From contig NZ_AP021901.1 in assembly GCF_018325905.1 (NCBI RefSeq), positions 4,588,001 to 4,652,000 of the forward strand: 64,000 nucleotides of DNA, in the 5' to 3' direction. The notes below the pieces were generated by a model. It searched no databases and was not told the origin of the DNA. It saw nothing but the letters and a program-made list of their open reading frames with translations. Made by a program: the position numbers and the translations under genes. The stretch comes from Pseudomonas sp. St316. GTDB lineage: Bacteria; Pseudomonadota; Gammaproteobacteria; Pseudomonadales; Pseudomonadaceae. Of this stretch, positions 31,743 through 49,654 are shown one piece after another (within the stretch, counting starts at the first letter, position 1; every line of letters starts with the position of its first letter).

Positions 31743-32351
31743 ATGAAACACGAAACAATCGAAAAAAACGTCGGCCTGCTGATGCTGCTGATGGTCCTGG
31801 CCGTGAGCATTGGCGGCCTGACCCAGATCGTGCCGCTGTTCTTCCAGGATGTGACCAATAAACCGGTGGACGGCATGAAGCCCTACACCGCCCTGCAATT
31901 GGAAGGCCGTGACATCTACATCCGTGAAGGCTGTGTCGGCTGCCACTCGCAGATGATCCGTCCGTTCCGCGCCGAGACCGAGCGCTACGGCCACTACTCC
32001 GTCGCTGGCGAAAGCGTCTGGGACCACCCATTCCTGTGGGGCTCCAAGCGTACCGGGCCGGACCTGGCACGGGTCGGCGCGCGCTACTCCGATGATTGGC
32101 ACCGCGCCCACTTGTACAACCCGCGCAACGTCGTGCCGGAGTCGAAAATGCCGGCCTACCCGTGGCTGGTGACCCAAGCGGTGGACAGCAGCCATACCGA
32201 AGGCAAGCTGCGCGCCATGCGCACCCTCGGCGTGCCATACACCGACGACGACATCGCAGGCGCGACGGCATCGCTCAAGGGCAAGACCGAAATGGACGCA
32301 CTGGTGGCCTACCTGCAAGTGCTCGGCACTGCCATCAAGAGCAAGAGGTGA
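31743..32351 (+). CDS. ccoO2: cbb3 oxidase mono-haem cytochrome c subunit, first copy
   Basis: A 202-residue membrane-anchored c-type cytochrome of the first cbb3 oxidase. One helix ([23 protein letters not shown]) anchors it, and the haem site is [11 protein letters not shown], with a methionine ligand likely in ESKMPAYPW. It passes electrons to CcoN. GGAG is 6 nt before the ATG, 10 bp after ccoN2. Confidence 0.96.
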
Positions 32352-32354
32352 GCC

Positions 32355-32558
32355 ATGGTTCTTGAAATGAGTACTGGAATGATCCGCGGCCTGGGCACGG
32401 TCGTGGTGTTCATCGCCTTCATCGGCCTGACCCTGTGGGTATTCAGCAGCAAGCGTCGTCCAGAGTTCGCCGAAGCGCGCCTGCTGCCGTTCGCCGACGA
32501 GCCGTCTGCCGACATCGTCACCCCCCAAGACCCTGCAACAAGGAGTACCCGGCCATGA
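32355..32558 (+). CDS. ccoQ2: cbb3 oxidase small subunit CcoQ, first copy
   Basis: A 67-residue single-helix protein ([24 protein letters not shown]) that stabilises cbb3 oxidase. It starts 3 bp after ccoO2, and its last codon overlaps the ccoP2 start as ATGA, so the two are translationally coupled. ATG at 32379 (MSTGM) is an alternative start close to the form used in the second copy. Confidence 0.9.
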
Positions 32559-33508
32559 CCACCTTCTGGAGTACGTGGATCTGCGTACTGACCATCGGCA
32601 GCCTCATCGGCCTGACGTGGCTGCTGATCGGCACCCGCAAGGGCGAGACCAAGGGTAGCGTCGACCAGACCATGGGCCACAGCTTCGACGGCATCGAGGA
32701 GTATGACAACCCGCTGCCGCAGTGGTGGTTCCTGTTGTTTGCCGGCACCCTGGTGTTTTCCGTCGGCTACCTGGTGCTCTATCCGGGCCTGGGCAACTGG
32801 AAAGGCATCCTGCCCGGCTACGAGAACGGCTGGACCGGTGCCCATGAATGGGAGAAGGAGATGGCCAAGGCCGACGCCAAGTTCGGGCCGATCTTCGCCA
32901 AATTCGCCGCCATGCCCGTGGAAGAAGTCGCCAAGGACCCACAAGCCTTGAAGATGGGTGGCCGTTTGTTCGCCTCCAACTGCTCGGTCTGCCACGGCTC
33001 GGACGCCAAGGGCGCCTTCGGCTTCCCGAACCTGGCCGACAGCAACTGGCGCTGGGGCGGCGCGGCCGACACCATCAAGACCACCATCATGGGCGGCCGC
33101 ATGGCGGCAATGCCGGCCTGGGGCGAAATCCTCGGGGAAACCGGGGTCAAGAACGTGGCCGCGTATGTTCGCCACGACCTGGCCGGCCTGCCGCTGCCAG
33201 CGGACAGCGGTGCCGACCTGCAAGCGGGCCAGCAAACATTCAGCACCACCTGTGTCGCCTGCCACGGCGCCAACGGCCAGGGGACCGAAGCCATGGGCGC
33301 GCCGAACCTGACGCAACCGGCCGGCTTCATCTACGGCACCAGCCTGGCACAACTGCAACAGACCATTCGCCATGGTCGCCAGGGCCATATGCCGGCCCAG
33401 AGCGAACTGCTCGGCAATGACAAGGTGCAACTGCTTGCCGCCTACGTTTACAGCCTGTCCCACACCGCCGGTGCAGAGCGCCTGCAAGCCGAACACAAAA
33501 GCGAATAA
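32555..33508 (+). CDS. ccoP2: cbb3 oxidase di-haem cytochrome c subunit, first copy
   Basis: A 317-residue di-haem cytochrome c that is the entry point for electrons from soluble cytochromes. It has an N-terminal helix pair ([21 protein letters not shown] and [20 protein letters not shown]) and two CxxCH sites, [10 protein letters not shown] and [10 protein letters not shown]. The true start is the ATG at 32555 after AAGGAG, overlapping ccoQ2 by 4 nt. A hairpin follows the stop. Confidence 0.95.
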
Positions 33509-33524
33509 ATCTTGACCGCGTGAA

Positions 33525-33556
33525 CAGCCGCATCCATCTGGATGCGGCTGCTTTGT
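33525..33556 (+). terminator. Probable terminator of the first cco operon
   Basis: CAGCCGCATCC and GGATGCGGCTG form an 11-bp perfect stem with a 4-nt loop, followed by CTTTGT. The T tail is short, but the stem is strong and sits 17 nt after the ccoP2 stop. Confidence 0.65.
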
Positions 33557-33890
33557 GTCCCTGCGCGACGCATTGTCGCACCCTTCCATAGTCTTCCTTT
33601 CGGTTCCCCGCAATCGGGTCTAAGCTTGCCTTTGCGTGCGCTGGCGACTGCCGGTTTCAGGTCGACCCGACCCGATGCGTTCGACAATCGTTCGTCAAAA
33701 AGGCCGCAAAGGCCGGTGAATACCGGCTGTTGCGACAGTTGCCTGGCATCACCCGAACGCTGCGTTTGAACACACCCCGTTACAACCGACCTGCCCCCTC
33801 GCCTCGTTCCTTCGTAGCGACATTTTGCCGTGGGCCATTTTTGCCCCTACACAGAACATGGAAAGGCCGCAGAATCAGCTTTGGAAAGCA

Positions 33891-33904
33891 TTGACCCAGG
33901 TCAT
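33891..33904. promoter_or_regulatory. Weak Anr-like site upstream of ccoN1
   Basis: TTGACCCAGGTCAT keeps seven of ten Anr consensus positions. Its centre is about 49 bp from the start predicted by the nearby TTGCAA/CATACT pair, not at -41.5. Weak or no Anr control would fit cco1 of P. aeruginosa, which is expressed at all oxygen levels. Confidence 0.3.
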
Positions 33905-33988
33905 GGCGCGTTGCAATGACCCCCCGCTTTCTCCATACTTGCGACCGATTTTTATCCTAATAAAACACCCAAACCGTGGAACCTTAGA

Positions 33989-35431
33989 ATGAGCACAGCA
34001 ATCAGTCCGACTGCTTATAACTATAAGGTAGTCCGCCAGTTCGCCATCATGACGGTGGTCTGGGGGATCCTTGGCATGGGGCTCGGTGTCTTCATCGCCT
34101 CGCAACTGGTCTGGCCGGAGTTGAACTTCGATCTGCCATGGACGACATTTGGACGCCTGCGCCCGCTGCACACCAACCTGGTGATCTTCGCCTTCGGTGG
34201 TTGTGCATTGTTTGCCACTTCTTACTACGTCGTGCAGCGAACCTGCCAAACGCGACTGATTTCCGACAGCCTCGCCGCCTTCACCTTCTGGGGCTGGCAA
34301 GCGGTCATCGTCGGTGCGATCGTGACCCTGCCACTGGGTTACACCACCACCAAGGAATACGCTGAGCTGGAATGGCCCCTGGCTATTCTGCTGGCCATCG
34401 TCTGGGTGACCTACGGTCTGGTGTTCTTCGGCACCATCGTCAAACGCAAGACCAAGCACATCTACGTCGGTAACTGGTTCTACGGTGCGTTCATCGTCGT
34501 GACAGCCATGCTGCACATCGTCAACCACGCCTCCCTGCCGGTCAGCTTCTTCAAGTCGTACTCGGCCTACTCGGGCGCGACGGATGCGATGATCCAGTGG
34601 TGGTACGGCCACAACGCCGTAGGCTTCTTCCTGACCACGGGCTTTCTGGGGATGATGTACTACTTCGTGCCGAAACAGGCCGAGCGTCCGATCTACTCCT
34701 ATCGCCTGTCCATCGTGCACTTCTGGGCGCTGATCACCCTGTACATCTGGGCCGGTCCCCACCACCTGCACTACACCGCACTGCCAGACTGGGCGCAGTC
34801 CCTGGGCATGGCGATGTCGATCATCCTGCTGGCGCCAAGCTGGGGCGGCATGATCAACGGCATGATGACCCTGTCGGGCGCCTGGCATAAGCTGCGCACC
34901 GACCCGATCCTGCGGTTTTTGGTGGTGTCGCTGGCGTTCTACGGCATGTCGACCTTCGAAGGCCCGATGATGGCCATCAAGACCGTCAACTCCCTGAGCC
35001 ACTACACAGACTGGACCATCGGCCACGTACACGCCGGTGCACTCGGCTGGGTTGCGATGATTTCCATCGGCGCCATCTACCACATGATCCCGAAACTGTT
35101 CGGTCGTGCGCAGATGCACAGCACCGGCCTGATCAACACGCACTTCTGGCTCGCGACCATCGGCACCGTGCTCTACATCGCCTCGATGTGGGTCAACGGC
35201 ATCACCCAAGGCCTGATGTGGCGTGCGATCAACGACGACGGCACCCTGACCTACTCGTTCGTCGAAGCCCTGCAAGCCAGCCACCCGGGTTATATCGTCC
35301 GTGCCCTGGGCGGCGCGTTCTTCGCCAGCGGCATGCTGTTCATGGCCTACAACGTGTACCGCACCGTTCGTGCCTCTGACCCGGCTGAAGCTGAAGCCGC
35401 CGCCAAGATCGCCGTAGTTGGAGCTCACTGA
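33989..35431 (+). CDS. ccoN1: cbb3 cytochrome c oxidase subunit I, second copy
   Basis: The 480-residue catalytic subunit of the second cbb3 oxidase, with the same haem/CuB ligand blocks as the first copy ([36 protein letters not shown]). It differs mainly in the N-terminal helices, the third to sixth helices and a longer C-terminus. Large parts are identical at DNA level, including a 60-nt and a 65-nt exact run. Its stop codon shares one base with the ccoO1 start. Named ccoN1 because it is the operon nearer ccoG. Confidence 0.96.
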
Positions 35432-36039
35432 TGAAGCACGAAGCAGTAGAGAAGAATATCGGCCTGCTGGCCTTCTTCATGGTCATCGCCGTGAGCATCG
35501 GCGGCCTGACCCAGATCGTTCCGCTGTTCTTCCAGGACGTGACCAACAAGCCGGTCGAAGGCATGAAGCCACGTACCGCCCTTGAACTGGAAGGCCGTGA
35601 CATCTATATCGCCAACGGTTGTGTCGGCTGCCACTCGCAGATGATCCGTCCGTTCCGCGCCGAAACCGAACGCTACGGCCACTATTCGGTCGCGGGTGAA
35701 AGCGTCTGGGACCACCCGTTCCTGTGGGGTTCCAAGCGTACCGGTCCGGACCTGGCCCGCGTTGGCGGCCGCTACTCCGATGACTGGCACCGTGCGCACT
35801 TGTACAACCCGCGCAACGTGGTGCCGGAGTCGAAAATGCCGGCCTACCCGTTCCTCGTAGAAAACAAGCTCGACGGCAAAGACACCGCCAAGAAAATGGA
35901 AGTCCTGCGCACCCTGGGCGTGCCTTACACCGACGAAGACATCGCCGGTGCCAAGGATGCCGTCAAGGGCAAGACTGAAATGGACGCGCTGGTGGCCTAT
36001 CTGCAAGGCCTGGGCACCATCATCAAAAGCAAACGGTGA
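35431..36039 (+). CDS. ccoO1: cbb3 oxidase mono-haem cytochrome c subunit, second copy
   Basis: A 202-residue membrane-anchored cytochrome c, the same length as ccoO2. The anchor is [23 protein letters not shown] and the haem site is [11 protein letters not shown]. Start and ccoN1 stop overlap (TGATG), with GGAG in the end of ccoN1. It mediates electron transfer from CcoP to CcoN. Confidence 0.96.
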
Positions 36040-36045
36040 TTCTTT

Positions 36046-36231
36046 ATGGATATCGGGATGATTCGCGGCCTGGGCACCGTCGTCGTGATGGTGGCCTTCA
36101 TCGGTCTGGCCCTGTGGGTGTTCAGCCCCAAGCGCAAGTCGGAGTTTGACGACGCGACCTTGCTGCCGTTCGCGGATGATCCCGAAGCCATCAAGCACGT
36201 CGAGCAAGCTTCTAGGAGTAACAAAGAATGA
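36046..36231 (+). CDS. ccoQ1: cbb3 oxidase small subunit CcoQ, second copy
   Basis: A 61-residue protein with one helix ([24 protein letters not shown]) and an acidic C-terminal tail. It lies 6 bp after ccoO1, and its stop overlaps the ccoP1 start as ATGA. It has the same role as CcoQ in the first copy. Confidence 0.9.
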
Positions 36232-37211
36232 CTACATTCTGGAGTCTGTACGTCACAGTCCTCAGCCTGGGAACGATCTTCTCCCTGACCTGGCTGCTGC
36301 TGTCGACCCGCAAGGGCCAGCGCGCCGAGCAGACGGACGAGACCGTCGGCCACTCGTTCGACGGGATCGAGGAGTACGACAACCCGCTGCCGAAATGGTG
36401 GTTCATGCTGTTCGTGGGCACCATCGTGTTCGCCCTCGGTTACCTGGTGCTCTACCCTGGCCTGGGCAACTGGAAAGGCCTGCTGCCCGGCTATAACTAC
36501 CTGGACACAGAAAAGCAGACCGCCTTCGCCAACGGCCAGACCGGCTGGACAGGCGTTCACGAGTGGGAAAAGGAAATGGCTCGCTCGGACGCCAAGTTCG
36601 GTCCGATCTTCGCCAAGTTCGCCTCCATGCCGATTGAAGAAGTCGCCAAGGACCCGCAAGCCCTGAAGATGGGTGGCCGCCTGTTCGCCTCCAACTGCTC
36701 GGTCTGCCACGGTTCCGACGCCAAGGGTGCCTATGGCTTCCCCAACCTGACCGACGCCGACTGGCGCTGGGGCGGCGAGCCGGAAACCATCAAGACCACC
36801 ATCATGGGCGGCCGTCACGCCGTGATGCCGGGTTGGGCTGCCGTGGTGGGCGAACAAGGCGTGGCCGACGTGGCTTCCTACCTGGTGACCAGCCTGCACG
36901 GCCGCAAGTTGCCGGAAGGCGCCAAGGCCGACCCGGCCAACGGCCAGAAACTGTTCGCGGCCAACTGCGTGGCCTGCCACGGTCCGGCCGGCAAGGGCAC
37001 CCCTGCCATGGGCGCACCTGACCTGACCCACCCTGCTGCGTTCATCTACGGTTCGAGCTTCGCCCAACTGCAACAGACCATCCGCTACGGTCGCCAGGGC
37101 CAGATGCCGGCCCAGGCCGACCTGCAAGGCAACGACAAGGTCCACCTGCTGGCGGCCTATGTCTACAGCCTGTCCCACGGCGAAAAGGCTCCGGCCGCTG
37201 ACGCCCAGTAA
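36228..37211 (+). CDS. ccoP1: cbb3 oxidase di-haem cytochrome c subunit, second copy
   Basis: A 327-residue di-haem cytochrome c with CxxCH sites in [10 protein letters not shown] and [10 protein letters not shown]. It resembles the first copy but carries an extra segment ([12 protein letters not shown]) between the membrane helices and the first haem domain. AGGAG stands before the ATG at 36228, which overlaps ccoQ1 by 4 nt. A strong terminator follows, ending the operon before the accessory block. Confidence 0.95.
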
Positions 37212-37228
37212 GGCAGCAGCCGAGACAC

Positions 37229-37264
37229 AAAAGGCCCCGCCAATCTGATTGGCGGGGCCTTTTT
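37229..37264 (+). terminator. Intrinsic terminator of the second cco operon
   Basis: AAAAGGCCCCGCCAAT and ATTGGCGGGGCCTTTT pair over 16 bp with a 3-nt loop, followed by TTTGTT. It is symmetric enough to work on both strands. Confidence 0.93.
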
Positions 37265-37361
37265 GTTGCCGACCGAAAAACTGGGGTAAATCTGTTCCGC
37301 TTGCCGGCCACCCACCCAAGTAGTAACGTGCCTACATTAAAGCTCATACGAGGACGCCTTC

Positions 37362-37616
37362 ATGTCCATCACCACCATCTCCAGCCGCGAATTCAACCAC
37401 GACACAAGTGGTGCCAAAAAAGCCACTCGTGAAGGGCCGGTGATCATCACCGACCGTGGCAAGCCGGCCCATGTACTGCTAAGCATTGAGGAGTACCAAA
37501 AACTGACCGGCATTGGCACCAGCATTGTCGAATTGCTGGTCATGCCCGATGCGCCGGATATCGACTTCGATCCCGAGCGTGCCGTCATCGCCCCCCGCTC
37601 GGTGGACCTGTCCTGA
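37362..37616 (+). CDS. Phd/YefM-family antitoxin
   Basis: An 84-residue antitoxin beginning MSITTISSREFNHDTSGAKK, with the Phd/YefM pattern (REFN, VIITDRGKPAHVLLSIEEYQKL). The N-terminal half dimerises and binds the operator, and the acidic C-terminal tail (MPDAPDIDFDPERA) wraps the toxin. Its stop codon directly abuts the toxin ATG, so the pair is coupled. It follows the ccoP1 terminator by about 100 bp and should have its own autoregulated promoter. GGAC gives a modest ribosome site. Confidence 0.9.
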   Translation: MSITTISSREFNHDTSGAKKATREGPVIITDRGKPAHVLLSIEEYQKLTGIGTSIVELLVMPDAPDIDFDPERAVIAPRSVDLS

Positions 37617-38027
37617 ATGTATTTACTCGATACCAATGTCATCTCGGAGCTGCGCAAGCCCCAGGCAGACAAAAACGTCCAAGCCTGGGCACGCAGCATC
37701 CCTGCTCCCAGCCTGTATGTCTCGGCGATCACCGTCCTGGAACTGGAAACCGGTGTGTTGCGCTTTGAACGCAAGGACCCGACGCAGGGCAGTCACCTGC
37801 GGGCCTGGCTGGATAATCACGTGATGCCTGCCTTTGCCGGCAGGGTCCTGGCCGTGGACCGTGCCGTCGCACTGCGTTGCGCTCGCCTGCATGTGCCTGA
37901 CCGCAGCAATGAATGCGATGCGCTGATTGCCGCCACCGCACTGGTCCATGGCCTGACCGTGGTCACCCGCAACGTCGCGGACTTCGAGGCCAGCGGGGTT
38001 ACGCTGCTCAACCCGTGGGTCGCCTGA
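37617..38027 (+). CDS. VapC/FitB-type PIN-domain toxin
   Basis: A 136-residue PIN ribonuclease. The metal-binding acidic residues are all present: Asp5 in LLDTNVISE, Glu42 in TVLELETG, Asp101 in NECDALIAA and Asp122 in NVADFEA. VapC toxins usually cut tRNA or rRNA and are neutralised by their partner antitoxin. It is the second gene of a two-gene operon with zero spacing. The Phd-type antitoxin plus VapC-type toxin is a known mixed pairing. Confidence 0.92.
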   Translation: MYLLDTNVISELRKPQADKNVQAWARSIPAPSLYVSAITVLELETGVLRFERKDPTQGSHLRAWLDNHVMPAFAGRVLAVDRAVALRCARLHVPDRSNECDALIAATALVHGLTVVTRNVADFEASGVTLLNPWVA

Positions 38028-38147
38028 CACGGCGCGGCTACGTCTGCCCAGAATGATTGACCGAGCGATTGCCTGATGCGTCGCAAGCTGGTCCAATGCC
38101 CGCTCGAACGGATACGCAAGCCACAATTGCCAAGGAGACAAGGCGCA

Positions 38148-38219
38148 ATGGAAGGCATCAAATTGCTTGAACCCACGGCCCCCAGTCACTCTGCCAGCCT
38201 GAGCACCCTGCATGTCTGA
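38148..38219 (+). CDS. Possible 23-residue coupled ORF ahead of rhs
   Basis: ATG at 38148 follows AAGGAG (with an 8-nt spacer) and opens MEGIKLLEPTAPSHSASLSTLHV, ending in TGA at 38217-38219, eight bases into the rhs gene. The rhs start at 38212 has no clear ribosome site of its own, so this frame may drive it by translational coupling. It may instead be a remnant of a larger upstream gene. Confidence 0.35.
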   Translation: MEGIKLLEPTAPSHSASLSTLHV

Positions 38220-41200
38220 CGCGCTCTGGGCCGCTCGGCTGGGCGATGCACTGAACCACACCTCGATGATGGCCGACATCCTTGGCGGCGTATTGGAGGT
38301 GGCGGCCAACATTGCGATCACCGCCCTGGCGACCGCCGCCGTGGTCGCGGCCACGGGCATCACCGTCGTCACCGGCGGCCTGGGCTGCTTCGTCCTCGGC
38401 CTGGTGGTGGGCACCGTCGTCGGCCTGGCGATGAGCAAGACCGGGGCCGACAAAGGCCTGAGCAATTTATGCGAGGGCATCGGCAACGCCCTCTTTCCGC
38501 CCACGGTGCAGGCCAACATCCTCACCGGCTCCAAGGACACCCTCACCAACAACATCCCCGCGGCCCGCGCCGCCGGGGCGATTGAATCCCACGTTGCCCC
38601 GGCCGGCACCGAGCTGGAGGCACCCACGCCTGAAGAAGAACCCAGCTACCTGGACATGGCCGGGAATTTTTTCTCGCAGATGTGGCGCCCCACCGTCGCC
38701 GTGCCCGCCCCTGGCGCCGTGCCCAAGCCGGAAGACCTGGTGATCTGCACCAAGCATCCACCGATGCCACCGCAGTTCATGGCCGAAGGTTCGGACAAAG
38801 TCACCATCAACGGCCAGCCCGCCGTACGCAGCGGCGACCGCAGCACCTGCGATGCGACGGTGGTGTCGGCCGGGCTGATCTCCCCCAACGTGACCATTGG
38901 CGGCGGCTCGGTGGTGGTGCGCGAGATCCGCAGCGGCAAGACCCCAGGCGTCGGCCTGGCGGTCACCGCACTGCTGATGCTCAAGGGTGGCAAGGGCAAG
39001 TTCTTCAGCAAGTTGCCGTGCATGCTGGTGGGCGGCGCGGTGTCCATGGCCGCCAGCAGCGCGGCGAACGCGGCCGCCAACGCCGCCATGGGTTCGTCGA
39101 ACCCGGTGCATGCCGCCACGGGCGCCAAGGTACTGGGCGGTGACGAGGACCTGGATTTCGTTTTGCCCGGCCTCCTGCCGATTGACTGGCAGCGCGTGTA
39201 CAACAGCCGCGACGAACGCCGCGACACTTTGTTCGGCGCCGGCTGGAGCGTGGCCTACGAAGTCTGCGTCGAGATCCTGCCCCACCCGGAGGGCGGCGAA
39301 ACCCTGGTCTACACCGACGAACAGGGCCGGCCCATCGACATGGGTTCCATCCCCTTGGGCGGCGCGGTGTTCAGCGCCGGCGAAGGTTTGGCCGTGCGCC
39401 GCCATGTGAGCGGGCAATTGCTGATCGAGAGCGACGACGGCCTGTACCGTTTGTTCGAACCGTCGCCCGCCAACCCATCACACCTGCGCCTGAGCCAACT
39501 GGGTGACCGCAACGACAACCGCATCCACCTCGACTACGACGACGCCGGACGCCTGGTGCGGCTGCGCGACACGTTCTATCTGGTGCAGGTCGAGCTGGTG
39601 CGCGAACAGGGACGCGTCACCCAGATCGAACGCCTCTACCCCGACCAATCCCGGGAAGTGCTGGTCAGCTACACCTACGACGCGGCGAATACCCTCGCCG
39701 AAGTACGCGACGCCACCGGCCAGGTGCAACGGCGCTTCCGCTATGACGCCGGGCAAAGGATGGTCGAGCACCAGTTGCCCACCGGCCTGCACTGCTTCTA
39801 CGAATGGGCCTTGATCGACGACCAGGAATGGCGCGTGGTGCGGCATTGGACCGACGAAGGCGACGCCTACCAGTTCGACTATGACCTCACCGCCGGCACC
39901 ACCCGCATCACTGACAGCCTGCAGCGGGTCAGCACCCGGCAGTGGAACAGCCAACACCAGATCACCCAATTCAGCGACAACCTCGGCCAGACGTGGCTGT
40001 TCCAGTGGAACGATGAGCGCCAGTTGCTCAGTGCCACCGATCCACAGGGCGGCCAGTACCAGTTCAGCTACGACGAAACCGGCAACCTCATCAGCGAAAC
40101 CGACCCGTTGGGCCGCAGCGAAACCACCCTCTGGCTCGAACACTGGGCCCTGCCGCTGGCGGACACCGACGCCGCCGGCAACAGTTGGAAGTACCGCTAC
40201 GATCAGCGCGGCAACTGCATCGCCGAAACCGACCCGCTGGGGCATGTCACCCGCTACCGCTACGACGCCCACGGCCAGGTCGTAGAAATCATCGACGCCA
40301 CCGGCAAGAGCAAAAAACTGCGCTGGAACCCGTTCGGCCAATTGGTGGAACACGTCGATTGCTCGGGTTACCCGACGCGCTTCAGCTATGACACGCGCGG
40401 TTACCTGCACACCATCACCGACGCCCTCGGCGAGCGCACCCAGTTCAGCTACGACGCCCAAGGGCGCTTGCTCGGCAGCCAATTGCCGGACGGCCGCACC
40501 GAGCACTACCAGCGCGACATCGCCGGCCAGTTGACCGGTTACACCGACCCGGCCGGACACACCACGCTCTACCAACACAACCGCCGCGGTCAGGTCCGCC
40601 AACGCACCGACGCCCAGGGCCGGCAGGTGCAATTCGCCTACGACAGCTTTGGCAGGCTGCAAACGCTGGTCAACGAGAATGGCGAAAGCTACCGGTTTGC
40701 CTGGGATGCCGGGGATCGGTTGACTGAACAACAAAACCTGGATGGCAGCGCCAAAGGCTATACGTACGACGCCCTCAACAACGTAAAACGAGTCGAAACC
40801 GTCGCAGCGCCGCGAGGTGATCATCAGCCCAGTGAAAAGACCATTGTTCATCATCTGGAACGTGATGCCATTGGCCGGCTGACCACCCGAATTACACCTG
40901 ATGGACAGTCCCGGTATAGCTATAGCCCGTTGAATCAGCTAATCGAAGCCACCGTCATCGATAACGACGGCAACGAACAACGACTGGGCTTTGCTTATGA
41001 CGCGCTGGGTTATCTGATTGAGGAGCAGAGTTCAGCAGGCGTTCTGAAGCATCACTACGACGAACTCGGCAACCTGATCCAGACCCAACTGCACGATGGT
41101 CGTTGGATCAACCGCCTGTACTACGGCAGTGGTCATCTGCACCAAATCAACCTCGACGGCCACGTCATCAGCGACTTCGAACGCGATCGGCTGCATCGAG

Positions 41201-42609
41201 AGGTGCTGCGCACCCAAGGCCAAATCAGCACACGGAGTGAGTATGACCGTAGCGGGCGCTTACGCAGCCGCCACCGTCGGCACACCAGCCAGCCGTCGTT
41301 GATGCCTGCCGCAGATCAAACCCATTTTGAGTTTGATCCTGGCGACCATTTGGTGGGGCGTCTTGAACGGCTGCCACAGGGCCAACAACGCCAATTGCTG
41401 CACTACGATGTGACAGGTCGGGTCCTGGCAAGCCAGGGAACTCGACAAGGCCAGAATGAAACATTTTCCTTCGATGCCGCAGCCAATCTCCTCGACAGTT
41501 CACCCGGTACGGGTGGGCGGGTTACGCACAACCAACTCAAGCGCTATCAGGATAAGCACTACCGCTACGATGGCTTTGGCCGAATGATTGAAAAGCGCAG
41601 CAGGCGGCATGGCCTGCAGCGCTTCAGTTACGACTCGGATCATCGGCTGGTTGAAGTTCGAACGCACAAATCCGACGGTGAAAACATTGTCAGGATGCGC
41701 TATGACCCTTTGGGCCGAAGAATTGAAAAAACCCAACATGACCACAACGGGCGGCTCATCGCCTGCACGCGTTTCGACTGGGACGGCCTGCAATTACTCA
41801 AGGAACATAAAAATAGCCTGACCAGCCTGTACCTCTACATTGGCGACAGTCACGAACCCTTGGCCCGGGTCGACGGCATCGGTGAGCATCAACGCATCCG
41901 CTATTACCACAACGACTCCAATGGTCTACCACAAGTCTTGACGGAAAGTGACGGCCACCCGCTATGGCATGCTCACTATCAGGTATGGGGCAACAGCCTT
42001 GATGAAGTCCGTGAACCGTACTACATCGAAGAACAGAACCTGCGCTTTCAGGGACAATACCTGGACCGGGAAACAGGCCTGCACTACAACACCTTCCGCT
42101 TCTACGATCCCGACATAGGCCGCTTTACCACACCCGACCCGTTGGGCCTGGCCGCAAGCCTGAATCTTTATCGCTACGCACCGAATCCATTTACCTGGAT
42201 CGACCCGCTGGGGCTCAAAGAGAATGAGATTATCCGCTACATGGGCGAGAGCGAAACGGTCTCATCCAAGGCTGCCAACGGAGGCAAAGGCGGTTTGGTT
42301 CCGAATATCAGGGGAGAAAAAGCAGTCTGGGTCAATCAGGACAGCAATCCTGGATTCAACCCAGGCAATGAAAAGTATCGGGTAGTGGCCACCGTCAATA
42401 ACGAAGGGGTCAGCATGCTCAATAACCACAAGGACATCTCTACCGTTGACTATAAAGAGACAGGTCTGAAAGATGGCGTGCTGTCCAAGACGAATGAGCC
42501 CAAGGCCAGAGGCATCGGTTTCCGATTATTGGATAAATTCAATAAAACCATTACGTCATTTCGGGTCGAGAAGAAAGGCCCGAACGGAAAATGGAAGACC
42601 TGCGGATAA
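38212..42609 (+). CDS. PAAR-Rhs polymorphic toxin (T6SS effector type)
   Basis: A 1465-residue Rhs protein. A prePAAR motif (AARLGDALNH, residues 7-16) precedes two hydrophobic helices (about 26-74) and a PAAR domain (to about 235), the tip that sits on VgrG of type VI secretion systems. RHS/YD repeats (for example YDAAGRL, RYDAHGQV) fill about residues 330-1290. The conserved core end is GRFTTPDPLGL and then WIDPLGL. The last 130 residues (KENEIIRYMGESE to GKWKTCG) form a distinct C-terminal domain, the presumed toxin. GC falls to 46% over 42421-42600 against about 67% near 39000, typical of a swapped tip. No VgrG or chaperone gene is adjacent. Confidence 0.93.
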   Translation: MSDALWAARLGDALNHTSMMADILGGVLEVAANIAITALATAAVVAATGITVVTGGLGCFVLGLVVGTVVGLAMSKTGADKGLSNLCEGIGNALFPPTVQANILTGSKDTLTNNIPAARAAGAIESHVAPAGTELEAPTPEEEPSYLDMAGNFFSQMWRPTVAVPAPGAVPKPEDLVICTKHPPMPPQFMAEGSDKVTINGQPAVRSGDRSTCDATVVSAGLISPNVTIGGGSVVVREIRSGKTPGVGLAVTALLMLKGGKGKFFSKLPCMLVGGAVSMAASSAANAAANAAMGSSNPVHAATGAKVLGGDEDLDFVLPGLLPIDWQRVYNSRDERRDTLFGAGWSVAYEVCVEILPHPEGGETLVYTDEQGRPIDMGSIPLGGAVFSAGEGLAVRRHVSGQLLIESDDGLYRLFEPSPANPSHLRLSQLGDRNDNRIHLDYDDAGRLVRLRDTFYLVQVELVREQGRVTQIERLYPDQSREVLVSYTYDAANTLAEVRDATGQVQRRFRYDAGQRMVEHQLPTGLHCFYEWALIDDQEWRVVRHWTDEGDAYQFDYDLTAGTTRITDSLQRVSTRQWNSQHQITQFSDNLGQTWLFQWNDERQLLSATDPQGGQYQFSYDETGNLISETDPLGRSETTLWLEHWALPLADTDAAGNSWKYRYDQRGNCIAETDPLGHVTRYRYDAHGQVVEIIDATGKSKKLRWNPFGQLVEHVDCSGYPTRFSYDTRGYLHTITDALGERTQFSYDAQGRLLGSQLPDGRTEHYQRDIAGQLTGYTDPAGHTTLYQHNRRGQVRQRTDAQGRQVQFAYDSFGRLQTLVNENGESYRFAWDAGDRLTEQQNLDGSAKGYTYDALNNVKRVETVAAPRGDHQPSEKTIVHHLERDAIGRLTTRITPDGQSRYSYSPLNQLIEATVIDNDGNEQRLGFAYDALGYLIEEQSSAGVLKHHYDELGNLIQTQLHDGRWINRLYYGSGHLHQINLDGHVISDFERDRLHREVLRTQGQISTRSEYDRSGRLRSRHRRHTSQPSLMPAADQTHFEFDPGDHLVGRLERLPQGQQRQLLHYDVTGRVLASQGTRQGQNETFSFDAAANLLDSSPGTGGRVTHNQLKRYQDKHYRYDGFGRMIEKRSRRHGLQRFSYDSDHRLVEVRTHKSDGENIVRMRYDPLGRRIEKTQHDHNGRLIACTRFDWDGLQLLKEHKNSLTSLYLYIGDSHEPLARVDGIGEHQRIRYYHNDSNGLPQVLTESDGHPLWHAHYQVWGNSLDEVREPYYIEEQNLRFQGQYLDRETGLHYNTFRFYDPDIGRFTTPDPLGLAASLNLYRYAPNPFTWIDPLGLKENEIIRYMGESETVSSKAANGGKGGLVPNIRGEKAVWVNQDSNPGFNPGNEKYRVVATVNNEGVSMLNNHKDISTVDYKETGLKDGVLSKTNEPKARGIGFRLLDKFNKTITSFRVEKKGPNGKWKTCG

Positions 42610-42615
42610 AACCAG

Positions 42616-43626
42616 ATGGACATATTCGATCTTCTCTCATACAAGCTTGAAAACTTCCTGAACGCCCGGCCCTGTCCGAAGGCGTTGGAGGCTGTTTTTT
42701 ACAAAGAAGAGGAGCCTTCGCTGCTAAGCGTTGTCGCCAGAAAACACAATGGCACCCCCTTCAGCGTTAGCCGCTGGCATGATTTGTTTTCCGTCGGCGC
42801 TTTCGAAAAATCCATGTTGAAAAATGGCTTCACGGAACCCGACTGCTACGCCCTCGTCCTGGTCCTGTCGCGCTTTGGCTATCTGCTGGAAATCGACAAC
42901 CGTCAAAGAACCAACAAGGAATACTTTATTTTCTTCTATCTGATCCAACTGATCAGCTTGAAGAACAGCACTGAGGATGCGGATGCGCAACTCAGGAACT
43001 ACATGCTCAGGTTCCTGCTCTTCGAATTGAGTATTGATGACGAGGCGTATCGTCGGTTCAGCATAGAGGGCAACCAGCTGATGATGACTACCGATGAATC
43101 AGGGGTCGTGACTTTTCTGGATGTGATTGATCTGGTCTACCAAACGATCAAGGCAGACACCCGGAAAGAGCATGAACTGTTCGGTACGTTGAAAACGTTT
43201 CAAACAAACACAGTCAGATTACTCACCGAGCCCGACGATACCCCTTACCGTTTCGCAATCAATGATCGTCACAGCGAACTCATGTACCCCGACGTATTTC
43301 TGCTCGCGTATGCTCAGGCCCCCGAAAAAATATTTAATGCGTTGATCGACGCGGTCAATCCGCTTCAGTCCACGGCAAATCTGTTCGTTTCCAATATGAT
43401 TGTGATGAATTACGCCTTTCACATCCTGAAAGACAAGCCTCGCGAAATCCTGAAACTGAAAAAACACGTCCGTGATGAAACGTTGTTCGGACAATTGCTG
43501 GAGGTGATCCTCAAGCGTCGGATGGCGGTCAGCAAGGCACTTTTCAAAAAAGTCCCAACGGGTCACGATCTCTCCTCGATCGAGGATGGGCAAACCACGT
43601 TCTACAACATCTTGTACAGCCAGTAG
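42616..43626 (+). CDS. Hypothetical protein, probable Rhs immunity protein (336 aa)
   Basis: This starts 7 bp after the rhs stop and is co-directional, the position of immunity genes in Rhs loci. The 336-residue product begins MDIFDLLSYKLENFLNARPC, appears largely helical (LIQLISLKNST, LRNYMLRFLLFELSI) and has no signal peptide, so it should act in the cytoplasm. I recognise no family. It is larger than most immunity proteins, so another role is possible. The immunity call is inference from position only. Confidence 0.6.
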   Translation: MDIFDLLSYKLENFLNARPCPKALEAVFYKEEEPSLLSVVARKHNGTPFSVSRWHDLFSVGAFEKSMLKNGFTEPDCYALVLVLSRFGYLLEIDNRQRTNKEYFIFFYLIQLISLKNSTEDADAQLRNYMLRFLLFELSIDDEAYRRFSIEGNQLMMTTDESGVVTFLDVIDLVYQTIKADTRKEHELFGTLKTFQTNTVRLLTEPDDTPYRFAINDRHSELMYPDVFLLAYAQAPEKIFNALIDAVNPLQSTANLFVSNMIVMNYAFHILKDKPREILKLKKHVRDETLFGQLLEVILKRRMAVSKALFKKVPTGHDLSSIEDGQTTFYNILYSQ

Positions 43627-43660
43627 AACTTGGCCTGAATTCGCATGAGTTCAAAGAAAC

Positions 43661-43686
43661 CGTGGCGAGGGAGCGTGCTCCCGCAA
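43661..43686. repeat. Single REP element
   Basis: GTGGCGAGGGAGCGTGCTCCCGC is a diverged REP palindrome of the same type as at 3763-3793, located 35 bp after the putative immunity gene. Confidence 0.6.
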
Positions 43687-43840
43687 GGATGGCGGTGGGT
43701 ATCTGGTTTTTGAGGCTCATCCCGCGCTCACCGACACAAACACTATCAATGCAATCGCGACCCGCTCTGGCGGGCGCAAGTGCACCTCGCTAGAGTCACC
43801 CCAGGAACAAAACACTCATTATTCATAGAAAAGGATTTCC

Positions 43841-44838
43841 ATGAAAAAACTGACCTGCTTGAAACTTCTATCTGCCCTGTTGCTTGGTTGCAGCGTGCCC
43901 CTCACGCACTCATTGGCGGCAGACATACCACCAAGCCACATTGTATTGGCCGCCAGCCCGAAGTATCCCTCCAGTGAAAAATCCGAAAACAGCGAGACCG
44001 AATCAACTGGCGACACGGCATCTCGCTCGCGCTGGCTGATCGAGGCCCAGTACGCCAGCATCGCCGAATTCCGTGCGCAGTCGGGGGGCCGGCCGCAGTG
44101 CCCGTCATGATCAACGGCAACCTGACACGATCAGGCCACGCCAGTGAGCGTGCCTATATCAAGGCTGTCTTGCAGAACAAACTGAACAATCTCTATGACT
44201 ACGGCCTCGGCCGTCATGACTACGACTTCAACGTCGACAGTTGCGCCAGTTGCGCGGCCGGCAGTATTGACGACCTCAAGGAACGGTACTGGGGAAAGGT
44301 CCGGAACATGGACTTGTCGGCCCGGGCCGCGGGCCTGACGAAAACCTGGTATGGCAGCCTGGCCTATGCCCGGGACTTTGGCGATGTCCACCTGGTCCAG
44401 GTGCATAACCAACCCACCTACTCGGTGAATTTTTCCACCCACGCCGTTTTCAACACCACCGCCTATGAAATCACGACATCCCTCGACTGGCTGGAGCGCG
44501 ACCTGCAACAAGCGCGCTCCCAAGGCAAGATCATTCTGCTGAACCTGCACCAGCCATTTCATTGGCCGGTCCGGGAAACGGAAATCGCGCGTTTCAAGCA
44601 ACTGATCGAGGACCATGGCGTCACCGCCGTGTTTTCCGCCGATGCAAACAGCAAGCCTGGGCTGTACCCGCCCAACTACACCTACGGCGACGTGCCGTTG
44701 TTCACCAGTGGCTCGGCCGCCCGGAAAACCTGGCTGTACGCCAAGGTCTCCGACGACCGGAAACACCTGACCGTCAACGTCATTGCCAACAACGATTGGC
44801 GCAACCCGGTCGCCAGCCACACCGTCGTCGTCCGATAG
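43841..44838 (+). pseudogene. Secreted metallophosphoesterase-like protein, frameshifted and degenerate
   Basis: A signal peptide (MKKLTCLKLLSALLLGCSVP) and the segment to AEFRAQSGG are in one frame, which stops at 44110. The rest (AAVPVMINGNLTRSGHASE to SHTVVVR) continues in another frame. The junction has six G at 44083-44088 where seven would restore SGGPAAVPVM. Calcineurin-like motifs are altered: the usual D-P-Q-Y-P reads SPKYP, GD-L-T reads GNLT and GNHD reads GRHDYD, so metal ligands appear lost even if the frameshift is a sequencing error. Restored length is about 332 residues. It lies at the end of the accessory block before ccoG. Confidence 0.7.
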
Positions 44839-44913
44839 ACCTTCAAGTGGCGCCAATGGAGGTTCCCATTGGCGCCGTCCGCGACGACTGGACGGCTATA
44901 CTCGACAAGTCAA

Positions 44914-44927
44914 TTGATCTGGGTCAT
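44914..44927. promoter_or_regulatory. Weak Anr-like site upstream of ccoG
   Basis: TTGATCTGGGTCAT matches eight of ten Anr consensus positions, about 170 bp before ccoG. No good -10 lies at the offset seen for hemN. ccoG clusters are oxygen-regulated in other bacteria, so it is worth noting but unproven. Confidence 0.35.
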
Positions 44928-45095
44928 GACTTGTTACATCCGCTACACCATTCGACCCCTGCACCCAACGCGACCAAAGGTCGCACCCTTGAGCTAGAGC
45001 GACAAGCGTATCATTGCGCCACTGCAACACCCTTTGTGACCGTGGTCGGCACGTACTGGCCTTGGCACTTTTCCACTGCCGTGGGATGCATTTTG

Positions 45096-46511
45096 ATGAG
45101 CAACCAGATTCCGGTACATGACGTTACCCCGCCAGCCAAGGACGCGAACAAAAGCGTCGACTTGTATGCCTCTCGGGAAAAAATCTACACCCGCGCCTTC
45201 ACCGGCCTGTTCCGCAACCTGCGGATGCTCGGTGGTGCGTTCTTGTTCCTGTTGTATTTCGGTACCGTCTGGTTGAACTGGGGCGGCCACCAGGCCGTCT
45301 GGTGGAACCTGCCGGAGCGCAAGTTCTTCATCTTTGGCGCCACCTTCTGGCCCCAGGATTTCATCCTGCTGTCCGGGATGTTGATCATTGCCGCCTTCGG
45401 CCTGTTTTTCATCACGGTCTATGCCGGACGAGTGTGGTGTGGCTACACCTGCCCACAGAGTGTGTGGACCTGGATCTTCATGTGGTGCGAGAAGGTCACC
45501 GAAGGCGACCGCAACCAGCGCATCAAGCTCGACAAGGCCCCCTTGGGCGCCAACAAATTCCTGCGCAAGTTTGCCAAGCACAGCCTGTGGCTGCTGATCG
45601 GTTTCGTCACCGGCATGACCTTTGTCGGTTACTTCACGCCCATCCGCGAGCTGGTGTTCGAGTTCTTTACCGGCCAGGCCGATGGCTGGTCGTATTTCTG
45701 GGTGGGCTTCTTCACCCTCGCCACCTACGGCAACGCTGGCTGGCTGCGTGAGCAAGTGTGCATCTACATGTGCCCTTACGCACGCTTCCAGAGCGTGATG
45801 TTCGACAAGGACACCCTGATCGTTTCCTACGACCCGCGTCGCGGCGAAAGCCGTGGCCCGCGCAAGAAGGGCGTTGACTACAAAGCCCTGGGCCTTGGGG
45901 ATTGCATCGACTGCACCATGTGCGTCCAGGTCTGCCCTACCGGCATCGACATCCGCGATGGCCTGCAGATCGAGTGCATCGGCTGCGCAGCCTGCATCGA
46001 TGCCTGCGACAACATCATGGACAAAATGGATTATCCACGCGGCCTGATCAGCTACACCACCGAACACAACCTTTCGGGGCAGAAAACCCATAAACTGCGC
46101 CCGCGCCTGATCGGTTATGCCTTGGTGCTGCTGGCCATGATGAGCCTGTTGGCGGCGGCGTTCTTCATGCGCTCGCTGGTGGGTTTCGACGTCAGCAAGG
46201 ACCGCGTGCTCTACCGCGAAAACGCCGAAGGCCGGATCGAGAACGTCTACAGCCTGAAGATCATGAACAAGGACCAGCGCGACCATACGTACGTCCTGGA
46301 AGCCGCCGGCCTGCCGGACCTCAAGCTGCAAGGCCGTCGGGAAATCAAGGTCGCGGCCGGCGAGATCTACAGCCAGCCGGTCGAACTGTCCAGCGCACCG
46401 GAACAACTGCCATCGAGCACCAACGAGGTGACCTTCATCCTCAAGGACGCCGATGACGAAAACGTACATGTCGAAGCCAAGAGCCGGTTCATCGGCCCCC
46501 AAACTCGTTGA
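45096..46511 (+). CDS. ccoG: cbb3 oxidase maturation protein CcoG (RdxA/FixG)
   Basis: A 471-residue membrane protein with about five helices and two ferredoxin-type 4Fe-4S motifs (CIDCTMCVQVCPTG and CIGCAACIDACDN). CcoG reduces Cu(II) to Cu(I) for CuB insertion into CcoN. A CxxxCP motif (WCGYTCPQSVWTW) lies in the N-terminal membrane part, and the C-terminal periplasmic domain has an immunoglobulin-like fold (FixG_C). The start at 45096 is preceded by GGGA; the frame extends to 44562 without support. It is first of ccoGHIS, normally next to ccoP but here separated by the accessory block. Confidence 0.95.
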   Translation: MSNQIPVHDVTPPAKDANKSVDLYASREKIYTRAFTGLFRNLRMLGGAFLFLLYFGTVWLNWGGHQAVWWNLPERKFFIFGATFWPQDFILLSGMLIIAAFGLFFITVYAGRVWCGYTCPQSVWTWIFMWCEKVTEGDRNQRIKLDKAPLGANKFLRKFAKHSLWLLIGFVTGMTFVGYFTPIRELVFEFFTGQADGWSYFWVGFFTLATYGNAGWLREQVCIYMCPYARFQSVMFDKDTLIVSYDPRRGESRGPRKKGVDYKALGLGDCIDCTMCVQVCPTGIDIRDGLQIECIGCAACIDACDNIMDKMDYPRGLISYTTEHNLSGQKTHKLRPRLIGYALVLLAMMSLLAAAFFMRSLVGFDVSKDRVLYRENAEGRIENVYSLKIMNKDQRDHTYVLEAAGLPDLKLQGRREIKVAAGEIYSQPVELSSAPEQLPSSTNEVTFILKDADDENVHVEAKSRFIGPQTR

Positions 46512-46522
46512 GAGAACTGAAC

Positions 46523-47062
46523 ATGCCTGCAGCAACCGCCACCAGCCCTTGGTACAAGCACCTCTGGCCGTGGATCATTATCGCGATCCTGACCTGTTCG
46601 GTGACACTGAGCCTGACGATGGTGACCATTGCGGTGAAGAACCCGGATAACCTGGTCAACGACAACTATTACGAAGCCGGCAAGGGTATCAACCGCTCGC
46701 TGGAGCGCGAATTGCTGGCCCAGACCCTGCAATTGCGTGCCAACGTGCAACTGGACGAGCTCACCGGTGAAGTGAACCTGCGCCTGAACGGCAACAGCCG
46801 TCCCCAGACCCTGGAACTGAGCCTGATCTCGCCGACCCAGCCGGAAAAGGACCGCAAGATCGTCCTGACTCGCAACGACAGCGAACCGGGGCGCTACGTT
46901 GGCCAGTTGACAGACAAGATCGAAGGCCGGCGCTTTGTCGAATTGCTGGGGGTGGAAAACGACAAGACCTGGCGCCTGTTCGAAGAAGAACAGATCAATC
47001 ACGGCCAGGACCTCTTGCTGGGCGATGAACCGCTGCAAGGCGCTGAAGACCTGAAAAAATAA
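46523..47062 (+). CDS. ccoH: cbb3 oxidase assembly protein CcoH (FixH)
   Basis: A 179-residue FixH-family protein with one N-terminal helix (LWPWIIIAILTCSVTLSLTMVTIAV) and a periplasmic domain, containing the conserved DNYYEAGKGIN segment. CcoH interacts with CcoN during oxidase assembly. The start MPAATATSPWYKHL at 46523 is preferred over an in-frame TTG at 46508 that overlaps the ccoG stop. A REPIN follows. Confidence 0.9.
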   Translation: MPAATATSPWYKHLWPWIIIAILTCSVTLSLTMVTIAVKNPDNLVNDNYYEAGKGINRSLERELLAQTLQLRANVQLDELTGEVNLRLNGNSRPQTLELSLISPTQPEKDRKIVLTRNDSEPGRYVGQLTDKIEGRRFVELLGVENDKTWRLFEEEQINHGQDLLLGDEPLQGAEDLKK

Positions 47063-47079
47063 ATGACTGCGCTTCGCGC

Positions 47080-47163
47080 AATCGCGAGCAAGCTCGCTCC
47101 CACAGTGGGTCGCGGATGGCCATGCCTGCGCAATCTCCTGTGGGAGCGAGCCTGCTCGCGAAG
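47080..47163. repeat. REPIN between ccoH and ccoI
   Basis: ATCGCGAGCAAGCTCGCTCC and CTGTGGGAGCGAGCCTGCTC form an inverted REP pair inside the ccoGHIS cluster. It may stabilise the upstream mRNA or reduce read-through. Confidence 0.9.
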
Positions 47164-47203
47164 AGATTTCAGACACCCAGAAAGCTGCGATACGTGAATA
47201 CCC

Positions 47204-49654
47204 ATGACCACTCCACAGCCCTGCTACCACTGCGCCCTGCCCGTCCCCCCCGGCAGCCGCTTCACCGCCGTTGTCCTCGGTGAAACCCGTGAGCTGTGCT
47301 GCCCGGGCTGCCAGGCGGTGGCCGAGGCCATTGTCGCCGGTGGCCTGGAAAGTTATTACCAGCATCGCAGCGAAGCCTCGGCCAACCCCGAATCCCTGCC
47401 CGTCCAGTTGACCGATGAGCTGGCGCTCTACGATCGCCCTGACGTGCAGCAATCATTCGTACGCCATGAAGGCGAACTGGCCGAAACCACCCTGTTGATG
47501 GAAGGCATCAGTTGCGCCGCCTGCGGCTGGTTGATTGAAAAACAATTACGCAGCCTGCCGGCCGTGGCCGAGGCGCGATTGAACCTGTCCAATCATCGCC
47601 TGCATGTACGTTGGGCCGACGCTCAACTGCCGCTGAGCACGCTGCTCGCCGAGTTGCGCCAGATCGGCTACGTTGCCCACCCGTACCAGGCCGACCAGGC
47701 CTGCGAACAACTCGCCGCACAAAACCGCCTGGCCCTGCGCCAATTGGGTGTGGCCGGGCTGCTTTGGTTCCAGGCGATGATGGCGACCATGGCCACCTGG
47801 CCGGAATTCAACATCGACCTGAGCCCCGAGATGCACACCATCCTGCGCTGGGTCGCGCTGTTCCTCACCACCCCCATCGTCTTCTACAGCTGCGCGCCAT
47901 TCTTCAAAGGCGCAATGCGCGACCTGCGCACCCGTCATCTGACCATGGACGTTTCGGTGTCCCTGGCCATCGGCAGTGCCTACGTTGCCGGGATCTGGAC
48001 GTCGATTACCGGCGTCGGCGAGTTGTACTTCGATGCCGTGGGCATGTTCGCCTTGTTCCTGCTGGCCGGCCGTTACCTGGAGCGCCGGGCCCGGGAGCGC
48101 ACGGCTGCCGCCACCGCCCAACTGGTCAATCTGTTGCCGGCCTCATGCCTGCGCCTGGAGGATAACGGTCAGAGTGAACGCATCCTGCTCAGCGAATTGC
48201 GCACCGGCGACCGGGTGCTGGTGCATCCCGGGTCGGTCCTGCCGGCCGATGGCAGGATCCTGGATGGGCAATCCAGCATCGACGAATCGCTGCTGACCGG
48301 TGAATACCTGCCACAACCTCGCCAGGTAGGCGACGCGGTCACCGCCGGCACGCTGAACGTCGAAGGGGCGTTGACGGTCGAGGTGCTGGCTCTCGGGCAA
48401 GACACCCGGTTGTCGGCCATCGTGCGGCTGCTGGAACGGGCCCAGGCCGAGAAGCCGCGACTGGCGGAAATCGCCGACCGCGCCGCCCAATGGTTCTTGC
48501 TGTTCTCCTTGATCGCCGCTGCCGTCATCGGGCTGGTGTGGTGGCAACTGGACGCTTCGCGCGCGTTCTGGATCGTCCTGGCGATGCTGGTCGCCACCTG
48601 CCCTTGCGCGTTGTCCCTCGCCACGCCGACCGCCCTCACCGCCGCTACTGGCACCTTGCACAAGCTCGGCCTGCTGCTGACGCGCGGTCATGTGCTCGAA
48701 GGCCTGAACCAGATCGACACGGTGATTTTCGACAAGACCGGTACCCTCACCGAAGGCCGCCTGGCGTTGCGCGCCATTCGGCCATTGGCGGCTCTGGACA
48801 GTGATCAATGCCTGGGCTTGGCCGCCGCCCTGGAAAACCGCTCGGAACACCCCATCGCCCGCGCCTTCGGCCGCGCGCCATTGGCCGCCGAACAGGTGCA
48901 AAGCACCCCGGGGCTGGGGCTCGAAGGCTTGGTGGCCGAACAGCGCCTGCGCATCGGCCAGCCCGGTTTTGTCTGCCAACTGAGTGGCGCCGCCGTACCG
49001 CAAATGCCGGACGAACCCGGGCAATGGCTATTGCTGGGCGATGAGATCGGGCCATTGGCCTGGTTCGTCCTCGATGACCGCTTGCGCGCCGATGCCCCGG
49101 CGCTGCTGGCGGCTTGCAAGGCACGGGGCTGGCGGACACTGCTGTTGTCGGGTGACAGCTCGCCCATGGTTGCCAGCGTCGCCGCCGAACTGGGCATCGA
49201 TGAGGCTCGCGGCGGCCTACGCCCGGACGACAAATTGGCCGCGTTGCAACAGCTACACCAACAGGGCCGCAAGGTGCTGATGCTCGGCGATGGGGTGAAC
49301 GACGTGCCCGTGCTGGCGGCGGCGGACATCAGTGTCGCCATGGGCTCGGCCACCGACCTGGCCAAGACCAGCGCCGACGCGGTGCTGCTGTCCAACCGCC
49401 TCGACGCCCTGATCCACGCCTTCAGCCTGGCCCGACGCACCCGCCGGGTGATCATTGAAAACCTGGTGTGGGCAGGGCTGTACAATGGCCTCATGTTGCC
49501 GTTCGCCGCCCTCGGCTGGATTACGCCAGTGTGGGCGGCGGTCGGCATGTCCATCAGTTCGTTGACCGTGGTGTTGAATGCGCTGAGGCTGACCCGTCAG
49601 CCCAAGACGCAGGTTTTCGACGCCACGCCCGATACCCGCCCGCTGCCGGCCTGA
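47204..49654 (+). CDS. ccoI: Copper-transporting P1B-type ATPase CcoI (FixI)
   Basis: An 816-residue heavy-metal P-type ATPase that supplies copper for cbb3 oxidase. The cysteine-rich N-terminus (CYHCALPVPPG, LCCPGCQA) and the metal-binding loop GISCAACGWLIEKQL are followed by eight membrane helices with CPCAL. The phosphorylation site is FDKTGTLTEG, then ALENRSEHPIA for nucleotide binding and MLGDGVNDVPVL. No clear ribosome site precedes the ATG at 47204, so it may rely on an unusual site or coupling. Confidence 0.96.
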   Translation: MTTPQPCYHCALPVPPGSRFTAVVLGETRELCCPGCQAVAEAIVAGGLESYYQHRSEASANPESLPVQLTDELALYDRPDVQQSFVRHEGELAETTLLMEGISCAACGWLIEKQLRSLPAVAEARLNLSNHRLHVRWADAQLPLSTLLAELRQIGYVAHPYQADQACEQLAAQNRLALRQLGVAGLLWFQAMMATMATWPEFNIDLSPEMHTILRWVALFLTTPIVFYSCAPFFKGAMRDLRTRHLTMDVSVSLAIGSAYVAGIWTSITGVGELYFDAVGMFALFLLAGRYLERRARERTAAATAQLVNLLPASCLRLEDNGQSERILLSELRTGDRVLVHPGSVLPADGRILDGQSSIDESLLTGEYLPQPRQVGDAVTAGTLNVEGALTVEVLALGQDTRLSAIVRLLERAQAEKPRLAEIADRAAQWFLLFSLIAAAVIGLVWWQLDASRAFWIVLAMLVATCPCALSLATPTALTAATGTLHKLGLLLTRGHVLEGLNQIDTVIFDKTGTLTEGRLALRAIRPLAALDSDQCLGLAAALENRSEHPIARAFGRAPLAAEQVQSTPGLGLEGLVAEQRLRIGQPGFVCQLSGAAVPQMPDEPGQWLLLGDEIGPLAWFVLDDRLRADAPALLAACKARGWRTLLLSGDSSPMVASVAAELGIDEARGGLRPDDKLAALQQLHQQGRKVLMLGDGVNDVPVLAAADISVAMGSATDLAKTSADAVLLSNRLDALIHAFSLARRTRRVIIENLVWAGLYNGLMLPFAALGWITPVWAAVGMSISSLTVVLNALRLTRQPKTQVFDATPDTRPLPA

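Follow-up and report, generated by a model that had tools for sequence, protein, structure and literature searches.

An Rhs protein of Pseudomonas sp. St316 with a predicted ADP-ribosyltransferase tip and a putative 336-residue immunity partner

In the window analysed here (64,000 nucleotides of the Pseudomonas sp. St316 genome), an Rhs gene ends in a 130-residue tip and is followed by a gene of 336 residues, an arrangement that the original prediction had described and that the reading frames (38212-42609 and 42616-43626, both on the forward strand) bear out. With a probability of about 0.72, the Rhs protein is an antibacterial effector of the T6SS kind with an exchangeable tip, in which a tip of ADP-ribosyltransferase (ART) fold is paired with the 336-residue protein as its immunity partner. 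The paired immunity family is large and has neither a family model nor a matched fold, and its orphan genes, several of them behind toxin remnants, make it possible to read how tips were replaced while protection was kept. Moreover, because the toxin is conserved and the immunity protein changes faster, both their interface and how far cross-protection extends are open to direct tests.

Architecture of the Rhs gene and its terminal module

The Rhs gene (38212..42609, forward strand) encodes a protein of 1465 residues that comprises a PAAR motif, a DUF6531 domain, RHS repeats, an Rhs-associated core and the toxin tip. The PAAR motif, which serves T6SS spike mounting, occupies residues 175-219 (38734..38868, forward strand) and matches PF05488 at 44.3 bits against a cut-off of 27. 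In profile searches, the RHS/YD repeats scored 255.7 bits (PF05593) and the Rhs-associated core 90.6 bits (TIGR03696, cut-off 32.5); the prePAAR_I model PF25799 gave 7.7 bits, under its cut-off of 25. The sequence PVHAATG stands at residue 298, and DPLGL starts at residues 1309 and 1331, forming the DPLGL-X17-DPLGL cleavage motif ahead of the tip (residues 1309-1335; 42136..42216, forward strand). Both motifs (PVHAATG and DPhGL-X17-DPhGL) are cleavage sites of Rhs cages as described in PMC13285283. Three T6SS sheath genes are present in the genome, and no VgrG or EagR gene was seen adjoining the Rhs gene of the window. Matches to the DcrB/EagR family number two in the genome, one of which precedes an Rhs paralogue and neither of which lies beside the window's Rhs gene. 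The protein would consequently need a spike and a chaperone from elsewhere.

The tip (130 residues; 42217..42606, forward strand) begins directly after the second DPLGL; its frame opens at 42217, one base beyond the start at 42216 given originally, and 6 bases rather than 7 separate the stop codon (42607-42609) from the ATG of the following gene. Counting the window's own, three DUF6531-containing Rhs genes occur in the genome. One of the others (L052:4852-9183) shares 79.6% identity with the window's protein across residues 1-1334, beyond which its tip is a different one. The junction is therefore real, in agreement with the proposal of a recombined tip. This paralogue is preceded by a DcrB/EagR-family gene of 144 residues and a gene of 643 residues, which we take to be VgrG. 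The expected fall in GC content is real as well, although it does not reach the 46% first stated: the tip has 49.0% (48.5% over its final 130 bases) and the 336-residue gene 48.8%, as against 55.5% for the final 1500 bases of the Rhs core and 60.9% for the whole window. Ranked by GC content among the window's 390-base stretches, the tip is in the lowest 2.2%, and the 336-residue gene, ranked among stretches as long as itself, is in the lowest 1.0%.

Between the window and the related locus L007, the tip differs by 46 synonymous and 0 non-synonymous changes, which marks it as a protein under constraint rather than a frame open by chance; the immunity proteins of the two are 74% identical. Across eight sequences with intact tips (the window and seven relatives), dN/dS, obtained by a plain count (Nei-Gojobori) in which several pairs are near saturation, had a median of 0.008 for the tip (28 pairs, maximum 0.055), 0.095 for the core's final 1500 bases (27 in-range pairs) and 0.153 for the immunity gene beside an intact tip (25 in-range pairs).

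Directly 5' of the Rhs gene lie a Phd/YefM-type antitoxin gene (PF02604) and a PIN-domain toxin gene (PF01850) at 37362-38027, and a similar PIN gene stands ahead of a truncated Rhs gene at locus L004. The Rhs island (31743-49654, with the Phd/PIN pair before it) presumably sits between ccoNOP-type cytochrome cbb3 oxidase genes, apparently two sets reaching up to 37211, and genes that we take to be ccoG/ccoH/ccoI-like (from 44562 or later to 49654). The ccoNOP and ccoG/ccoH/ccoI genes usually adjoin each other. On the 3' side of the immunity gene, two overlapping frames were observed, 43841-44110 with a signal-peptide-like start and 44098-44838 (246 residues), neither having a Pfam match; the 246-residue frame resembles the remainder of the signal-peptide-like frame's protein, so the two are perhaps one broken gene.

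Predicted fold and candidate active site of the tip

As originally proposed, the tip is an uncharacterised domain: no model in the family libraries covers it and no known toxin family was matched by profile searches, and the 336-residue protein likewise belongs to no known family. Matches of the tips to PF13665 (Tox-PAAR-like; 12.9, 16.1 and 14.1 bits, cut-off 31) are taken as chance, and PDB sequence searches with the tip and the immunity protein gave matches at chance level only. Overlaps of the tip start with 7q97 and Tre23 (7pq5), the latter extending to tip residue 36 at E 0.0012, are attributed to a cage alignment running on, as shown for 7q97. The suggested weak resemblance to ART-type Rhs toxins finds no backing in these sequence searches, but it holds at the level of predicted fold. 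In structure prediction, the tip adopts an ADP-ribosyltransferase fold closest to that of RhsP2, which scores 3.3 Z higher than TreTu. The model was built on 13 rows in five versions (pLDDT 71.9 to 87.2), and Foldseek alone returned no match for it at E<=0.001. The RhsP2 entry 7rt7 was absent among tip-profile matches to PDB sequences up to E 10.

A search with the tip region retrieved 9 Rhs proteins, including ones from Pseudomonas, Photorhabdus and Serratia, and a search with the alignment retrieved 21 short or partial proteins, including those of Phytobacter, Xenorhabdus, Enterobacter and Serratia. The resulting alignment has 33 rows, some near-identical, and its column counts exclude the chimeric rows P0079-P0081. 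E81, K91, N93 and E94 are invariant in 28 of 28 covering rows; W38, N40 and P49 are kept in 25 of 25, Y54 in 24 of 25 and Y8 in 21 of 21. R7 is kept in 19 of 21; P0074 has K instead, and the partial P0072 has C. It is proposed that R7 (42235..42237, forward strand), located in model strand 4-9, is the NAD+-binding arginine, and alignment and model together suggest E94, which begins strand 94-100, as the catalytic glutamate within K91-T92-N93-E94 (42487..42498, forward strand). R7, E94 and an aromatic residue (W38 or Y54) would then be candidates for an R-Y-E triad. As for a lysine near E94, position 92, two residues before, is a threonine that varies, and the invariant K91 stands three before. 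The tips are basic, with pI values of 9.3-9.9 in all six examined.

The tip was found in 2 of 95 relatives, the source genome counted, and in 1 of 369 class-level genomes, this being the source genome alone. Relatives of the tip were seen neither in phages nor in viral contigs, and none of the immunity protein in viral contigs. Both genes occur together in 1 of 72,556 plasmid records, the DNA of that pair (from Phytobacter) was not found in E. coli genomes, and 2 of 274 enterobacterial genomes gave weak sub-threshold matches with no usable locus among them.

Linkage of the 336-residue gene to the tip and its orphan copies

The 336-residue gene (42616..43626, forward strand) is linked to the tip across genera, and it is intact in several genomes in which the tip is broken or was not found. 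A survey of 398 genomes of the genus found the tip, complete or partial, in 8 and the immunity gene, complete or partial, in 14. Every genome with the tip also has the gene, which lies directly 3' of it. The gene is full length in 12 of the 14, standing behind an intact tip in six (G000, G035, G527, G670, G708, G742), behind tip remnants in three (G485, G697 and G756, the last remnant being detected only by a more sensitive scan) and with no tip within 1.5 kb upstream in three (G669, G575, G585). In G585 an additional copy, reduced to a fragment, follows a tip remnant, and only fragments occur in G675 (residues 263-336) and G635 (residues 297-335). A scan of named genomes yielded 19 loci, overlapping with the former set (L008=G035, L006=G485, L011=G575, L021=G675). 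Here, an intact tip lies upstream in 3 (L003, L007, L008), remnants directly upstream in 4 (L004, L005, L006, L014) and a remnant 4.3 kb upstream in 1 (L018), and the tip was not found in the examined stretch of the other 11 (L009-L013, L015-L017, L019-L021), of which L021 retains the immunity gene as a fragment only. The comparison of neighbouring genes covers tips other than P0058, P0059, P0064 and P0065 (Photorhabdus, Serratia and Xenorhabdus loci).

Remnants of the same tip stand directly ahead of the immunity gene at L004, L005, L006, L014, L027 and L039, and the gene or a fragment of it follows Rhs genes with other tips at L005, L009, L010, L011, L014 and L021, which is the trace expected when a new tip is inserted ahead of an old pair. 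The other tip at L014 resembles that on the source genome's second Rhs. Orphan immunity and Rhs effector exchange are known in Serratia (PMC10539506). At L004 (4983-7005), a 267-residue Rhs start lacking its cage is followed by a tip remnant (profile positions 53-130) and then an intact immunity gene, and at L018 the remnant (1610-1744) is separated from the immunity gene by other genes.

Outside Pseudomonas, one intact pair was seen, on a Phytobacter plasmid. Its tip is 65% identical, and the gene that comes next, overlapping it by 1 base, encodes a protein 32% identical to the 336-residue protein; the pair occurs in a different bacterial family and outside a full Rhs gene. On this plasmid (L022, 310-7403), the tip pair stands in line with genes for an AHH protein, Imm43 and a TNT-related protein, an array of toxin and immunity genes that adjoins an IS5-family transposase. 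At the Lysobacter, Xanthomonas and Janthinobacterium loci, no Rhs gene was seen in the open frames up to 3.5 kb away. In Paenibacillus, the immunity gene of L020 is split across two frames, and other homologues, about 50% identical, have a length of 350 residues. A cysteine-rich CPCC-motif protein, possibly encoded by another immunity gene, is found directly ahead of the lone immunity gene in Lysobacter (L019, 5468-5968). Paired copies, copies behind remnants and copies lacking a tip are intermixed in a tree built from 28 immunity proteins, in which well-supported branches force at least three changes of the paired state; no direction is claimed, because bootstrap support is unsettled and L022 has a very long branch.

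Where no intact tip is present, the immunity gene (thirteen Pseudomonas sequences) gave a dN/dS of 0.132 (71 of 78 pairs), indicating that these copies too are under purifying selection. Linkage to the tip, orphan copies behind tip remnants and selection all argue that the 336-residue gene is likely the immunity gene for the tip, the role assigned to it in the original prediction. The structure predicted for its protein (pLDDT 79.9, pTM 0.82) consists largely of helices, contains a few short strands and has low confidence in three stretches; it found no convincing fold match among solved or viral structures. In the fold matches listed, 6drh_E was the sole ART toxin/immunity entry and showed no similarity (TM 0.17), and RhsI2 was absent, although such a search can miss a fold. 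A match to DUF1229 (16.9 bits, cut-off 25) was rejected. The family has many invariant polar residues, and a conserved IDNRQR-like stretch (residues 93-98) in a low-confidence loop is a candidate contact site.

Proposed action and comparison with known systems

It is proposed that the tip is released inside a rival cell, where R7 would bind NAD+ and, together with E94, allow nicotinamide to be split off and ADP-ribose to be transferred to a cytoplasmic target. Structured RNA would be the most likely target, although at somewhat under even odds, and failing that a protein, such as a component of the translation machinery. RNA is the first guess because RhsP2 gives the better fold score, because RhsP2 and RhsF, the R-Y-E Rhs ARTs, both modify RNA (PMC12340436, PMC13324451), and because the tips are basic. 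Modification of a protein, as with TreTu and its target EF-Tu, is a lesser and rather unlikely reading, against which the higher score of RhsP2 and the RNA activity described for RhsP2 and RhsF both speak, neither deciding the target. An ART-fold tip might also do no more than destroy NAD(P)+ as a glycohydrolase; Tne5 provides a precedent for such activity in an Rhs tip (PMC13285283), but that tip has 174 residues and a streptococcal NAD+ glycohydrolase as its nearest solved structure, compared with RhsP2 here, and this reading is considered improbable. That the tip is no ART, the fold match reflecting a common arrangement, appears more improbable still.

In the producing cell, the 336-residue protein would bind the basic tip and block its active site, and orphan copies would protect toxin-less cells. 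The gene also follows other Rhs tips and occurs at a distance from all observed Rhs genes, which might suggest an unrelated passenger of Rhs 3' ends, but its position directly downstream in all 8 tip genomes of the 398, the Phytobacter pair and the same-tip remnants directly ahead of it at six loci make this highly implausible. An enzymatic immunity that removes ADP-ribose or alters the target would suit a protein that is large for the role, as the original prediction had remarked, and rich in invariant polar residues. The immunity protein Tri1, whose cognate toxin is an ART, is reportedly bifunctional, which also counts in favour of this route. PARG-type hydrolases can furthermore protect against RhsP2 (PMC11833690). 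Conversely, no hydrolase fold was matched (Foldseek can miss folds), 6drh_E is dissimilar, and RhsI2 occludes the toxin's site (PMC11833690), as RhsFi also acts by occlusion (PMC13324451), so that this alternative to site blocking is regarded as quite unlikely. An equally speculative extension, in which a new immunity fold neutralises an RNA-directed ART beyond plugging its site (by ADP-ribose removal or target shielding), would explain the size of the protein, the intact orphan copies in other bacteria and the drift of immunity against a frozen toxin.

No description of the tip-immunity pair was recognised in the open-access literature, subscription papers lying mostly outside its scope. The nearest fold to the tip is that of RhsP2, the RNA-targeting ART toxin of the RhsP2/RhsI2 system of Pseudomonas aeruginosa (PDB 7rt7), to which it has no detectable sequence similarity. 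The RhsP2 triad is described as R1490, Y1524 and E1576, of which E1576 opens strand 5, with K1574 needed for RNA binding (PMC12340436). Its spacing of 34 and 52 is resembled by that of R7-W38-E94 (31, 56), whereas its essential lysine stands two residues before the catalytic glutamate and the conserved lysine of the tip three before. RhsI2 derives from a 435-bp ORF (PMC4067218), in contrast to 1011 bp here, and the 336-residue protein has no fold match. TreTu/TriTu of Salmonella (PDB 7zhl, 7zhm) is a weaker fold match to the tip, without a family match and with an immunity protein that is likewise unmatched. RhsF/RhsFi of Chromobacterium violaceum combines an Rhs tip with an R-Y-E ART, as proposed here, and its spacing of 53 and 41 resembles that of R7-Y54-E94 (47, 40), a likeness of spacing; RhsF carries FIX in place of the N-terminus of the window's Rhs protein (PMC13324451). 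Tne5 of Pluralibacter gergoviae shares the Rhs cage with PVHAATG and DPhGL-X17-DPhGL and an ART-fold tip, and is set apart by its description as a 174-residue NADase tip with a small immunity gene, compared with the 130-residue tip here (PMC13285283). Together, the tip and the 336-residue gene are predicted to represent a toxin-immunity family that is new, though of a known type; the modelled fold of its toxin points to NAD+ chemistry, and it adds an unannotated family to the few ART-fold Rhs tips described.
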